A program made the translations under genes and the position numbers. This document shows positions 9,558 to 13,454 of a stretch of DNA of 35,751 nucleotides, one piece after another. This stretch comes from Gammaproteobacteria bacterium (GTDB lineage Bacteria > Pseudomonadota > Gammaproteobacteria > GCA-001735895). Numbering within the stretch: the first letter of the stretch is position 1; each line of letters starts with the position of its first letter. A model generated the notes under the pieces. It was given only the letters and a program-made list of their open reading frames with translations, was not told the DNA's origin and made no database searches. The DNA lies in assembly GCA_029864185.1 (NCBI GenBank), contig JAOTTY010000005.1, forward strand, positions 1 to 35,751, written 5' to 3'.

Positions 9558-10322
9558 CTAGGCCGCGGCGATGGTCTGGATGATCGATTTCATCTTGTCC
9601 GCGGCAATGTCGCTGCCGTTGTCGCGCTGCCATTCGATGTACTGCGAGCAGAAGGCGGCGACCTCGGCCTTGCCGTTCAGCGCGGCGAGGTCATCGCTGC
9701 TGCGCACGCCGAAGCCGACCGCGAGCGGCAGGTCGGTGTGCTTACGGATCCCGGCGATGTAATTCTCGAATTTTTCGCCCCATTGTGTTTCGTGCCCGGT
9801 GACCCCCATGCGCGAGACCACGTAAATCATGCCGCGCGACGCGCGCACGATTTTTTCGATGCGTTGCGGCGCGGTATTGGGCGTTACCATCAATATCGGC
9901 GCCAGCCCCAGTGCATCGAGTTTCGGCAGCCAGGGCTCGATTTCCTCGACCGGCCAGTCGGGCACGATCATGCCCCTGATGCCGGCCGCAGCGGCTTGTT
10001 CGAACAGTTCCTCGAGACCAAAGCGGTATAGCGGGTTCAGGTAGCTCATCAGGATAAAAGTCACCTCTGGGTGACGCACGCAGACCTTTGTCGCCAGGTC
10101 CAGCGTTGCCCTGACCGAGCCGCCGTGTTTGAGTGCCTCGTAGCAGGCGTTGACCAGCGTATGGCCATCCGCAACCGGATCGCTGAAAGGGACCTGCAGC
10201 TCGATCAGTTTCACACCGGCGTCGGCAAGCCCGGCGATCGCTTTTTCGTTTTCTTCGAGGCTGGGAAAGCCAACCACGGCATGCGACATGATTTGCAGTT
10301 TATCGAATTGTGCTGGGAACAT
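9558..10322 (-). CDS. trpA: Tryptophan synthase alpha chain (divergent)
   Basis: A 254-residue TIM-barrel subunit that cleaves indole-3-glycerol phosphate and passes indole to TrpB. Catalytic Glu41 (LIELQVPFSDP) and Asp52 (PVADG) are present, as are YLNPLYRFG, VSRMGVTG and the phosphate-binding GFGV. Unusual points: the N-terminal HAVVGFP replaces the common TAGDP, and the loop PDWP replaces PDLP. The ATG at 10322 begins just past the trpB stop at 10327-10325 with a two-base gap, so the pair is translationally linked. The sequence looks further from typical proteobacterial TrpA than expected. Confidence 0.9.
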   Translation of the reverse strand: MFPAQFDKLQIMSHAVVGFPSLEENEKAIAGLADAGVKLIELQVPFSDPVADGHTLVNACYEALKHGGSVRATLDLATKVCVRHPEVTFILMSYLNPLYRFGLEELFEQAAAAGIRGMIVPDWPVEEIEPWLPKLDALGLAPILMVTPNTAPQRIEKIVRASRGMIYVVSRMGVTGHETQWGEKFENYIAGIRKHTDLPLAVGFGVRSSDDLAALNGKAEVAAFCSQYIEWQRDNGSDIAADKMKSIIQTIAAA

Positions 10323-10324
10323 GT

Positions 10325-11584
10325 TCAGTGTCCTCTGTTCTGGGCCAGTAACTCGGTCGAGCGGGCCGCTTCTCGCTGCAGGAACTCGGTCCATTCGCGC
10401 TGCGGAAAAGCGCGCGCGATGTTGAAGATGTCCTTGTCACCGCGCCCGCTCAGGTTGATGACGACATGCTGATCCGGCCGCATCTGCCTTGCGCGCTTGA
10501 AGCCGCCGGCAAGGCCGTGGGCCGATTCGAGCGCTGGGATGATGCCCTCGGTTTTCATCAGCAGGCTGAATGCCTCGGTTACCTCGTCGTCGGTGGCGGA
10601 TTCCGGAATGACACGGCCCTGTTGCGACAGGTAGGCCAGTATCGGCGATACCCCGACGTAGTCGAGCCCGGCAGCGATGCTGTGCGTGTCGCCGAGCTGC
10701 CCGTCGGCGTTCTGCAGGAACAGGGTCTTGTATCCCTGCGCGATGCCGGTCTCGCCGGTGTTATGCGACAGGCGAACCGAGTGTTTGCCGTCTTCGAAAC
10801 TGATGCCCCCGGCCTCGATTCCAACCAGGGTTACCTCGTGGTTGTCGAGAAACGCGCCGAAGGCGCCCATCGCGTTCGAGCCGCCGCCGACGCAGGCGAC
10901 GATTTCGTCGGGCAGGCGCCCCATCTGGCGCATCGACTGCTCCTTGATTTCATCGCTGATTATACTCTGGAAGTATGATACCAGCTCCGGGAAGGGCGCC
11001 GGGCCACAGGCGGTGCCGAGCACGTAATGGGTTGTTTCGACAGTTGCCGCCCAGTCGCGCAGGGCCTCGTCCAGCGCTTCCTTGAGCGTTTTCGCGCCGG
11101 TCTCGACAGCGACGACGTTCGCGCCGAGCTGGCGCATCCAGAACACGTTGGAATACTGCCGTTCGATATCCTCGGCGCCCATGTAAATGGTTGCCTCGAG
11201 CCCGAGACGCGCCGCCATGATCGCGGTCGCAAGGCCGTGCTGACCGGCCCCGGTTTCGGCGATCACGCGCTTTTTTTCCATGCGCTGAACCAGCAGCCCC
11301 TGGCCCAGTACGTTATTGATTTTATGTGCGCCCGAATGGTTGAGGTCCTCACGCTTGAGCCAGATCTGCGCCCCGCCCAGCAGCGTCGACAGGCGCCGCA
11401 GCGGCGTCAACGGCGTGGGGCGCCCGCTGAACTCCTGGCACAGCGTGACATATTCCTGCCAGAAATCCGGATCGTCGCGCAGGCTGAAGAACAGGTCTTC
11501 GAGTTCGGTCAGGGCTGGCAGCAGTATTTCGGGGACGAAACGTCCGCCGAATTCACCAAAATAACCATTGTCGCTGCGAATCAT
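10325..11584 (-). CDS. trpB: Tryptophan synthase beta chain
   Basis: A 419-residue PLP enzyme that joins indole and serine to tryptophan. Lys88 in HSGAHKINN binds PLP, Glu110 in AETGAGQHG is the catalytic acid, and CVGGGSNAMG and NLSGRGDKD bind the phosphate and serine sites. It runs as trpB then trpA, without trpF or other trp genes nearby. Its promoter holds a palindrome identical to that of the tetR gene at 12993, suggesting direct control by that repressor. No leader peptide with repeated Trp codons was seen in the 63 bases between the likely start site and the ATG. Confidence 0.93.
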   Translation of the reverse strand: MIRSDNGYFGEFGGRFVPEILLPALTELEDLFFSLRDDPDFWQEYVTLCQEFSGRPTPLTPLRRLSTLLGGAQIWLKREDLNHSGAHKINNVLGQGLLVQRMEKKRVIAETGAGQHGLATAIMAARLGLEATIYMGAEDIERQYSNVFWMRQLGANVVAVETGAKTLKEALDEALRDWAATVETTHYVLGTACGPAPFPELVSYFQSIISDEIKEQSMRQMGRLPDEIVACVGGGSNAMGAFGAFLDNHEVTLVGIEAGGISFEDGKHSVRLSHNTGETGIAQGYKTLFLQNADGQLGDTHSIAAGLDYVGVSPILAYLSQQGRVIPESATDDEVTEAFSLLMKTEGIIPALESAHGLAGGFKRARQMRPDQHVVINLSGRGDKDIFNIARAFPQREWTEFLQREAARSTELLAQNRGH

Positions 11585-11624: not shown

Positions 11625-11647
11625 AACTAAACGGTTTAGTATAGTTT
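11625..11647. promoter_or_regulatory. Operator copy 1 (trpBA), identical to the tetR operator
   Basis: The 23 bases here are identical to 12940-12962. The core ACTAAACGGTTTAGT (11626-11640) is a perfect 7-1-7 inverted repeat, the size and symmetry expected for a TetR-family dimer. On the minus strand it overlaps the TATACT -10 element of trpB, so bound repressor would block transcription. Confidence 0.75.
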
Positions 11648-11666
11648 GCATAGAACTATGCATAAA
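11638..11666 (-). promoter_or_regulatory. Likely trpBA promoter
   Basis: Minus-strand -10 TATACT (11643-11638) lies 17 bases after a poor -35, TTTATG (11666-11661). A better TTGATT sits 21 bases away. The -10 lies inside the shared operator element. Confidence 0.45.
11647..11662. promoter_or_regulatory. Second palindrome in the trpBA promoter spacer
   Basis: TGCATAGAACTATGCA is a perfect 7-2-7 inverted repeat in the spacer between the proposed -35 and -10 of trpB. It is absent from the tetR promoter, so it may bind a different regulator. It does not contain the CTAG core of known enterobacterial TrpR operators. Confidence 0.4.
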
Positions 11667-11729
11667 TCAACCCCGCCATGACGCCCGCATCGGAACAGAG
11701 CCAGATAGTGGGGTCGCTGAAAGCGGGAT

Positions 11730-12689
11730 CTAGATGAAGAAGGACGAAGCCACGGTACCGACGATCAGCGTGAGACCAAAGCCGAGATGAAGTTGCGCCG
11801 AGAGTTGATCGGCGCAGGTGAGCCTGGCATCGTCCGGCCCGGTGCTTGCCAGCATGTTGCGCAGCGCTTCGAAGGCCGGTTTGAGGGTAAGCAGAACCAG
11901 TAAGGAGCCGAGAGGCAGCAGCTTTACCGCGGCAGACCCGACCACCGCGACATAGGCAAGAATAACGAGGGCCGCATAATAAAGCCTGGAAATCCTGAAG
12001 CCCATTACTCCGGCGACGGTGTAGGAATTAGCCCGCCTGTCGCGCACTATGTCTCGCGTATTGTTGGCGTGGAGTATACCGATAACGAGTAATGCCAGCG
12101 GCAGCGATGCCGGGAAAATGAACATCGTATCGGTGTTCCCGGTCAGACAATAATAGGAGCCGAACACCATCAGGGGTCCAAACAGCATACCGACGAACAC
12201 ATCGCCGAGGGCAATGTACTTATACCCCTTCGGCCCTCCGCAATAGCAATAGCCTCCGAGCAGTCCGATCCCGCCGAGCACCGCGGCAAACATTCCCCTG
12301 CTGATAACGAAGGAGATGCCGAGAAGGGTACCTAGCGCGAGCAGCAGGAGACCGGCCCGGTAAACCTGCACCGGCTGCAGGAGGCCCTGCACGAGCACTC
12401 CGCTGGATCCCCGGGTGTCTTGCGTATCGACGCCGTACTTGAAGTCGAAGTAATCGCTGATCAGGTTCGATCCTGCATGGTACAGCAATCCGCATGCAAG
12501 AATCAGGGGCAGGAAGAACCACTGGATGTGATCGACGATACCGATCTGTTGATTATGATAGGAAAGCGCGGCCCCCAGCAGCATCGGGGTGGTGGATGCG
12601 GTAAACGAGAACGGTCGCACCGCCTGTAGCCAGAGTTGCAGGCCGGCAGGTGCCGTGGAATCGGGCGTGGTCTTCTCTACCTGTCGCAT
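11730..12689 (-). CDS. UbiA-superfamily prenyltransferase (MenA-like)
   Basis: A 319-residue polytopic membrane prenyltransferase. Two aspartate-rich motifs are visible: NLISDYFDFKYGVDTQD near 75-91 and NNTRDIVRDRRAN near 207-219. The magnesium-diphosphate sites of UbiA enzymes lie here. The arrangement resembles 1,4-dihydroxy-2-naphthoate prenyltransferase (MenA), but the aromatic acceptor cannot be told from the motifs. I prefer the ATG at 12689, preceded by GGAACAGGAAC, over an in-frame ATG at 12719. It is upstream of trpBA on the same strand and divergent from tetR. No terminator is evident between it and trpB, so read-through into trpBA is possible. Confidence 0.8.
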   Translation of the reverse strand: MRQVEKTTPDSTAPAGLQLWLQAVRPFSFTASTTPMLLGAALSYHNQQIGIVDHIQWFFLPLILACGLLYHAGSNLISDYFDFKYGVDTQDTRGSSGVLVQGLLQPVQVYRAGLLLLALGTLLGISFVISRGMFAAVLGGIGLLGGYCYCGGPKGYKYIALGDVFVGMLFGPLMVFGSYYCLTGNTDTMFIFPASLPLALLVIGILHANNTRDIVRDRRANSYTVAGVMGFRISRLYYAALVILAYVAVVGSAAVKLLPLGSLLVLLTLKPAFEALRNMLASTGPDDARLTCADQLSAQLHLGFGLTLIVGTVASSFFI

Positions 12690-12931
12690 GTTCCTGTTCC
12701 GTGTTCGAGGGACAGTCATCCAAGTGGCTATTTATACCGCTAAAGAATCATTGTTCTGGCCTGCATGCAGCGACAATCGAAGTCGGGTGCCATTGCTATA
12801 GTCTGAGCTTGCAATAAAAGTCACAGGATATCTTTCATTATGTCCTTAGGCGAAATGTTTACGGTGGATCTGGATTGTAAAATGCAGTCGCCGTTCAATC
12901 CCATTCCGCGCGCACGACGCGAATCCGGATA

Positions 12932-12960
12932 ATGACAGAAACTAAACGGTTTAGTATAGT
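12932..12960 (+). promoter_or_regulatory. tetR promoter
   Basis: ATGACA (12932-12937, five of six to consensus) and TATAGT (12955-12960) are 17 bases apart. The start site would be near 12967, leaving a leader of about 26 bases with AGGA before the ATG at 12993. The operator palindrome fills the spacer. Confidence 0.65.
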
Positions 12961-12962
12961 TT
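12940..12962. promoter_or_regulatory. Operator copy 2 (tetR autoregulation)
   Basis: Identical over 23 bases to 11625-11647. The palindrome ACTAAACGGTTTAGT (12941-12955) lies between the -35 and -10 boxes of tetR, the classical position for autorepression. It might also affect the divergent prenyltransferase gene. Confidence 0.78.
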
Positions 12963-12992: not shown

Positions 12993-13454
12993 ATGGCGCA
13001 GCAATCCAAGAAAGACCATATCGCAGCATCCGCACTCCCCCTGTTTCTGGAACATGGCTTCAAAGGCACCTCGATCGACATGGTGGTCCGGGCCAGCGGG
13101 GTGTCGAAGCCGACCGTTTACAATCATTTTCCGGACAAGTCGGCGTTGATACTGGCCGTATTGACTCGCTGGATTGAGCACCACAAGCCGCTGATTCAAC
13201 AGCCAGGAAGCATGGCGGAGCTCGAATCGTTCATGCGCAGCCATTGGCTGACCGACGAAGCAGTGAGGATTTACGCGATCGTCATCGGTGAAGGCTGGCG
13301 CTTTCCGGAAGCCCGGCAGCTGTTCTGGGAGCAATTCGACCGGCTGTGGCGCGTCGCCTTCTGCTACCTCAGCGACCGATCACCGAATCTCGAGCGCTCG
13401 GACATCGATCGGCAACTGGATCGACACCTGATCGAACGACTCCGGACCCAATGA
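12993..13454 (+). CDS. TetR/AcrR-family transcriptional regulator
   Basis: A 153-residue regulator. Residues 6-55 form a standard TetR helix-turn-helix domain: KDHIAASALPLFLEHGFKGT, then VVRASGVSKPTVYNHFPDKSAL. The C-terminal ligand domain is short, making the protein about 40 residues smaller than usual. No frameshift continuation is obvious downstream, so it may be a naturally short member. The ATG at 12993 follows AGGACGG. Its own promoter and the trpBA promoter share an identical palindrome, which makes trpBA its best target candidate. The ligand is unknown; an indole or tryptophan-related compound is a guess from the target. Confidence 0.85.
   Translation: MAQQSKKDHIAASALPLFLEHGFKGTSIDMVVRASGVSKPTVYNHFPDKSALILAVLTRWIEHHKPLIQQPGSMAELESFMRSHWLTDEAVRIYAIVIGEGWRFPEARQLFWEQFDRLWRVAFCYLSDRSPNLERSDIDRQLDRHLIERLRTQ

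Follow-up and report, generated by a model that had tools for sequence, protein, structure and literature searches.

A short TetR-family protein of 153 residues most probably acts as a local, autoregulated repressor of the tryptophan synthase genes trpBA, recognising a palindromic operator and, in the genome analysed here, working in trans; on the strength of sequence comparisons we give this reading a probability of about 85%. In the mechanism that we propose, a TetR dimer would bind a palindrome of 15 bp, ACTAAACNGTTTAGT. Ancestrally, a single operator between the divergent tetR and trpBA genes would block both promoters. In the present genome, tetR and trpBA are split and each has its own operator, which would place trpBA under control in trans. 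Derepression would probably follow a signal of tryptophan supply.

The window, that is, the whole stretch of 35,751 nucleotides that was analysed, contains in order trpA (-), trpB (-), operator copy 1, a UbiA/MenA-like gene (-), operator copy 2 and tetR (+), followed by genes for an acyltransferase and a histidine kinase (Table 1). The TrpB and TrpA proteins both exceed the equivalog cut-offs of TIGR00263 and TIGR00262, and the true start of trpA is probably the ATG at 10322. Each of the two genes is present as a single copy in its own genome. Genes for trpC and trpF are located elsewhere in that genome; the pathway to indoleglycerol phosphate therefore exists and can feed TrpBA.

Table 1. Features of the tetR-trpBA region, in window coordinates.
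Feature	Position	Strand	Details
trpA, tryptophan synthase alpha chain	9558..10394	-	TIGR00262, 181.5 bits
trpB, tryptophan synthase beta chain	10325..11584	-	TIGR00263, 558 bits
Operator copy 1	11625..11647	.	Core palindrome 11626-11640; 42 bp upstream of trpB start
Remnant of ancestral tetR leader, trpB side	11641..11680	+	40 nt, ends in ATG 11678-11680
UbiA/MenA-like prenyltransferase gene, between the two operators	11730..12719	-	PF01040, 96.5 bits
tetR promoter, sigma-70-type, predicted	12932..12960	+	ATGACA - 17 nt - TATAGT
Operator copy 2	12940..12962	.	Core 12941-12955; 52 bp upstream of tetR start
tetR, short (153 aa) TetR-family regulator	12993..13454	+	PF00440, 51.1 bits

The two operator copies are identical over 23 bp (AACTAAACGGTTTAGTATAGTTT) and share the core ACTAAACGGTTTAGT, a palindrome about one central base. 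The sequence-only reading had located both copies and their palindromic core correctly; it had also proposed a genome-wide search, reasoning that a palindrome found at many unrelated places would speak against its case. The search returned two perfect copies of the core in 4.35 Mb, one before trpBA and one before tetR, and no site with one or two mismatches. The level of three mismatches is background, with 26 matches in total against 109 for a reversed control pattern. Chance alone would yield, by simple arithmetic, about 0.016 exact matches to 14 fixed letters in 4.35 Mb. Within the window there is no third match to the core with up to three mismatches. A chance repeat was rejected because the exact sites are unique to these two places genome-wide. 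The spacing from copy 1 to trpB equals that in three relatives (L016-L018), and the spacing from copy 2 to tetR likewise equals that in relatives.

At the tetR end, a promoter scan placed the predicted -35 and -10 hexamers around the core, which fills the spacer between them just as had been described earlier, and the TGACA of this -35 is kept in nearly all closer relatives. From its position in the spacer, bound TetR should block the tetR promoter. In front of trpB, where the earlier reading had the operator overlap the -10, the promoter is less certain: a TATACT hexamer resembling a -10 element (minus strand, 11643-11638) overlaps the core of copy 1, yet no acceptable -35/-10 pair for trpB emerged from the scan; without a good -35 the trpB promoter is not settled, and occlusion there is assumed. 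The missing -35 would also fit a promoter that needs help, and the divergent architecture is that of trpI-trpBA in Pseudomonas, so that TetR might instead activate trpBA, or repress itself and activate trpBA, in the manner of TrpI. We consider this improbable: a site that overlaps the likely trpB -10 and sits in the tetR spacer is typical of repression and, as is generally known, most TetR-family proteins are repressors. TetR-family activators do exist.

The arrangement is conserved in relatives. When about 85,000 genomes were screened with the 153-residue TetR as query, clear orthologues emerged at 26 loci (L016-L041; about 46-78% identical in the best-matching segment), all from gammaproteobacteria: Hahella, Reinekea, Balneatrix, Sedimenticola, and uncultured marine species or MAGs including the Olavius algarvensis Gamma 3 symbiont. 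The palindrome lies upstream of tetR at every locus, perfect in 24 cases and with one mismatch in two. At 25 of the 26, tetR is divergent from trpBA with one palindrome between them; together with the scarcity or absence of other exact sites, this strongly supports the proposal of the sequence-only reading that TetR would control its own gene and trpBA. In an alignment of 24 genomes, the operator columns are 98.9% identical, as opposed to 55% and 66% in the 30 flanking columns on each side. When 25 genomes were scanned with up to one mismatch allowed, exact sites numbered one in 22 genomes, two in one (G016) and none in two, and the last two carry a one-mismatch version at the locus. A wider regulon was rejected, since there are no further exact sites in the genome of the window and almost none in the genomes scanned. 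Only trpA, trpB and tetR are common to the locus in all distant lineages. Moreover, the divergences of TetR are correlated with those of TrpB (Mantel rho 0.75, a value reached in 0 of 2000 permutations), which is the pattern of genes moving as a unit; shared ancestry of the host lineages would contribute to it too.

Loci at which tetR and trpBA have come apart bear on the link most directly. In Reinekea sp. G2M2-21, tetR and the only trpB lie 22 kb apart, and the genome contains exactly two perfect sites, one before each gene; this case is the strongest single test of the connection between TetR, operator and trpB. The window itself represents a derived state, in which the UbiA/MenA-like gene splits tetR from trpBA and each half has an operator. 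The ancestral intergenic order runs from the trpB leader through TGACA, the operator, ATAGTTTGCATA and about 25 nt to the tetR ATG. On the trpB side of the window, the leader remnant has the length of the tetR leaders in relatives and resembles them in sequence; the core of copy 1 is intact, the tetR -35 is lost and the rest of the remnant has diverged. Copy 2 retains an intact tetR -35 and an intact core, with decay on its trpB side. A sister genome, G411, whose TrpB is 97% identical, shows the same copy-1 remnant with a perfect core and different adjoining sequence; its trpB copy is separated as well, with no UbiA gene adjoining. The operator was therefore kept at both ends when regulator and target were pulled apart, in two lineages, which, with the absence of the site from relatives that lack both genes, adds to the strong support for the earlier proposal of TetR control over trpBA.

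Target-site duplication by a simple 23-bp insertion was also considered as the origin of the two copies, and was rejected because homology to the ancestral intergenic region extends beyond 23 bp, to the 40-nt tetR leader at copy 1 and the TGACA -35 at copy 2. This flanking homology is better explained if a larger segment was duplicated or translocated and then decayed.

The same remnant invites another explanation, namely that TetR is autoregulated and has its own gene or a neighbour (here the UbiA-like gene) as target, the site before trpB being a decaying leftover. Copy 1 does still stand next to a dead tetR leader and its ATG, so that the region is partly leftover, and in genome G401 tetR stands without trpBA. 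However, the core on the trpB side is perfect while the remnant around it, including the tetR -35, has diverged, in the window as in G411, and Reinekea sp. G2M2-21 has a perfect copy before trpB with tetR 22 kb away; a UbiA-like gene was found at the locus in no other relative examined, which argues against it as the target. We thus regard this explanation as very unlikely. G401 has kept tetR and a perfect operator but lost the linked trpBA, and its single trpB belongs to a canonical trpFBA; the regulator can therefore serve something else, or it is a relic there. At this locus (L146, 1504-3284) tetR is divergent from a gene for a thiamine-diphosphate enzyme that, by eye, resembles sulfopyruvate or phosphonopyruvate decarboxylase.

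The UbiA-like gene of the window lies between operators that the sequence-only reading had right, and was left unmentioned there. Against MenA models its product scores below their cut-offs. With a start about 220 bp away from operator copy 2, the gene might also be under TetR control.

Within the family, the site follows the regulator and its partner. Of 41 family genomes, 20 yielded a tetR, and these 20 belong to a single genus. In the 21 genomes without a detected tetR, the sole perfect palindrome is the one before the trpB of G411, which belongs to the TetR-linked clade; G416 also has a trpB of this clade, and its contig ends inside the operator. At 81% and 66%, the assemblies of G411 and G416 are incomplete, which may be the whole reason why no tetR was seen in them. 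The other tetR-less genomes of the family carry TrpB of different types or gave no full match, and no family relative lacking both tetR and its trpB clade contains the exact palindrome. That another transcription factor binds the palindrome is conceivable insofar as TetR binding is itself deduced from sequence, and yet highly improbable, as the site stays with tetR and with the associated trpB clade even where the two are separated, does not occur in exact form in relatives without both, has no further exact copies in the scanned genomes, and has a related counterpart, ACTAAACCGCTCAGT, upstream of a distant TetR homologue (L127).

The proposed repressor is a reduced member of its family. Its TetR_N helix-turn-helix domain (PF00440) scores well above the cut-off of 24 bits, and the C-terminal part matches no Pfam family. 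An AlphaFold model (mean pLDDT 92.8) consists of eight helices with an all-helical C-terminal domain, and its nearest fold is NalC (8ke8, TM-score 0.70). Regulators of the NalC/FrrA/AefR group (nearest structures 8ke8, 6g8h and 3cdl) share the fold and the helix-turn-helix and are among the best sequence and structure matches, but the window protein is 40-60 residues shorter and its C-terminal domain is reduced, leaving an unusually short ligand domain, a point that counts against the repressor reading. NalC, FrrA and AefR respond to phenolics, flavonoids or drugs and are mostly efflux-related. In an alignment of 25 orthologues, the recognition-helix region SK-TVYNHFPDK is invariant. Conserved aromatic and charged residues of the C-terminal domain (W60, W85, Y94, E100, R103, F111 and D116) could, as a conjecture, form a ligand pocket. 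The distant homologue at L127 (genome G144, 1345-2150) is 32% identical and has an AefR-like C-terminal domain; it lies near a gene that by eye resembles an RND-type efflux adaptor, on the opposite strand. This hints that the helix-turn-helix type and the operator derive from an efflux regulator.

As to the signal, we infer by analogy to TrpI of Pseudomonas and from the usual logic of TetR regulators that indoleglycerol phosphate or indole would be the inducer, an assignment to which we give roughly even odds. The main alternative, tryptophan acting as a co-repressor, seems distinctly less probable, and some other ligand less probable again.

The closest known system is the divergent trpI-trpBA pair of Pseudomonas, in which TrpI is a LysR-type activator of trpBA with indoleglycerol phosphate as inducer (PMC9105386). 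Both systems place a dedicated regulator gene divergent from a stand-alone trpBA, with the control sites in between. Unlike TrpI, the protein studied here is short, belongs to the TetR family, goes with a palindrome of 15 bp and is probably a repressor; it has a TetR_N domain only and does not belong to the LysR type. PMC9105386 in turn cites Chang and Crawford (1990).

The sequence-only reading had further stated that the system follows neither the usual TrpR scheme nor attenuation, and both statements held up. TrpR (PF01371) has no match in the genome of the window; in the 22 genomes searched it occurs only in four Reinekea genomes, where TrpR and the TetR system are both present. No known leader RNA was matched in the window at Rfam gathering scores, and the room for a leader between operator core and trpB start is only 41 nt. 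In the accessible text of PMC5343134, the core targets of TrpR are trpR and trpE in enterobacteria and relatives, and the regulator table contains no TetR-family regulator for tryptophan. The present system resembles the TrpR regulon in its autoregulated transcriptional control of tryptophan synthesis genes, whereas TrpR is of a different family. A search of the open-access literature, with subscription papers outside its scope, returned neither a TetR regulator of trpBA nor a relevant paper with the palindrome. The system would thus be a further case of a local regulator of a stand-alone trpBA, with a regulator family for which this role is unreported in the open-access literature searched.

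The enzymes form a group of their own. TetR-linked TrpB proteins make up one clade (support 100/98), apart from the canonical TrpFBA-type TrpB. In Hahella, Balneatrix and Sedimenticola, the TetR-linked trpB stands as a second copy beside a canonical trpFBA; Reinekea and the genome of the window have no other trpB. In the TetR-linked TrpA proteins, compared with an E. coli TrpA reference sequence, the catalytic Glu49 and Asp60 are kept, as are Thr183, Gly184 and Ser235, and the retained catalytic residues suggest that the enzymes are likely active. The phosphate-binding Gly234 (E. coli numbering) is replaced by Cys throughout the clade; all other TrpA proteins examined have Gly there, as far as they cover the position.

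An evolutionary scenario may be put forward tentatively, at slightly less than even odds: tetR, operator and trpBA would form a self-contained and portable cassette that entered several gammaproteobacterial lineages as a second copy and displaced the canonical trpBA in some (Reinekea and the genus of the window), with the short TetR as a new sensor of indole, indoleglycerol phosphate or tryptophan. If TetR control holds, the TetR family would join TrpR, attenuation, TRAP and TrpI in the control of tryptophan synthase, with a regulon of essentially two promoters and a defined operator, open to testing in Hahella and Reinekea, which are in culture. If the small TetR does sense an indole compound, it would also be a useful biosensor part.

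Other family members show further trpB diversity. Extra trpB genes without a detected adjoining trpA occur at L168, L169, L171-L176 and L178 and include at least one divergent clade, with 42-53% identity to the TrpB of the window. In sister species (L159, L160 and L162, from genomes G386, G412 and G413), trpBA follows a gene for a GntR/UTRA regulator, which reaches or overlaps the trpB frame; the TrpB is about 58% identical. L161 has the same TrpB type, and an intact regulator ORF is not evident there. Like the TetR-linked genes, those of L159, L160 and L162 have their own local regulator directly before trpBA, and their TrpB forms a sister clade; unlike in the TetR system, the regulator is of the GntR type and points in the same direction as trpBA, and there is no ACTAAAC palindrome. 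With GntR/UTRA, the types of local trpBA regulator within one genus number three.
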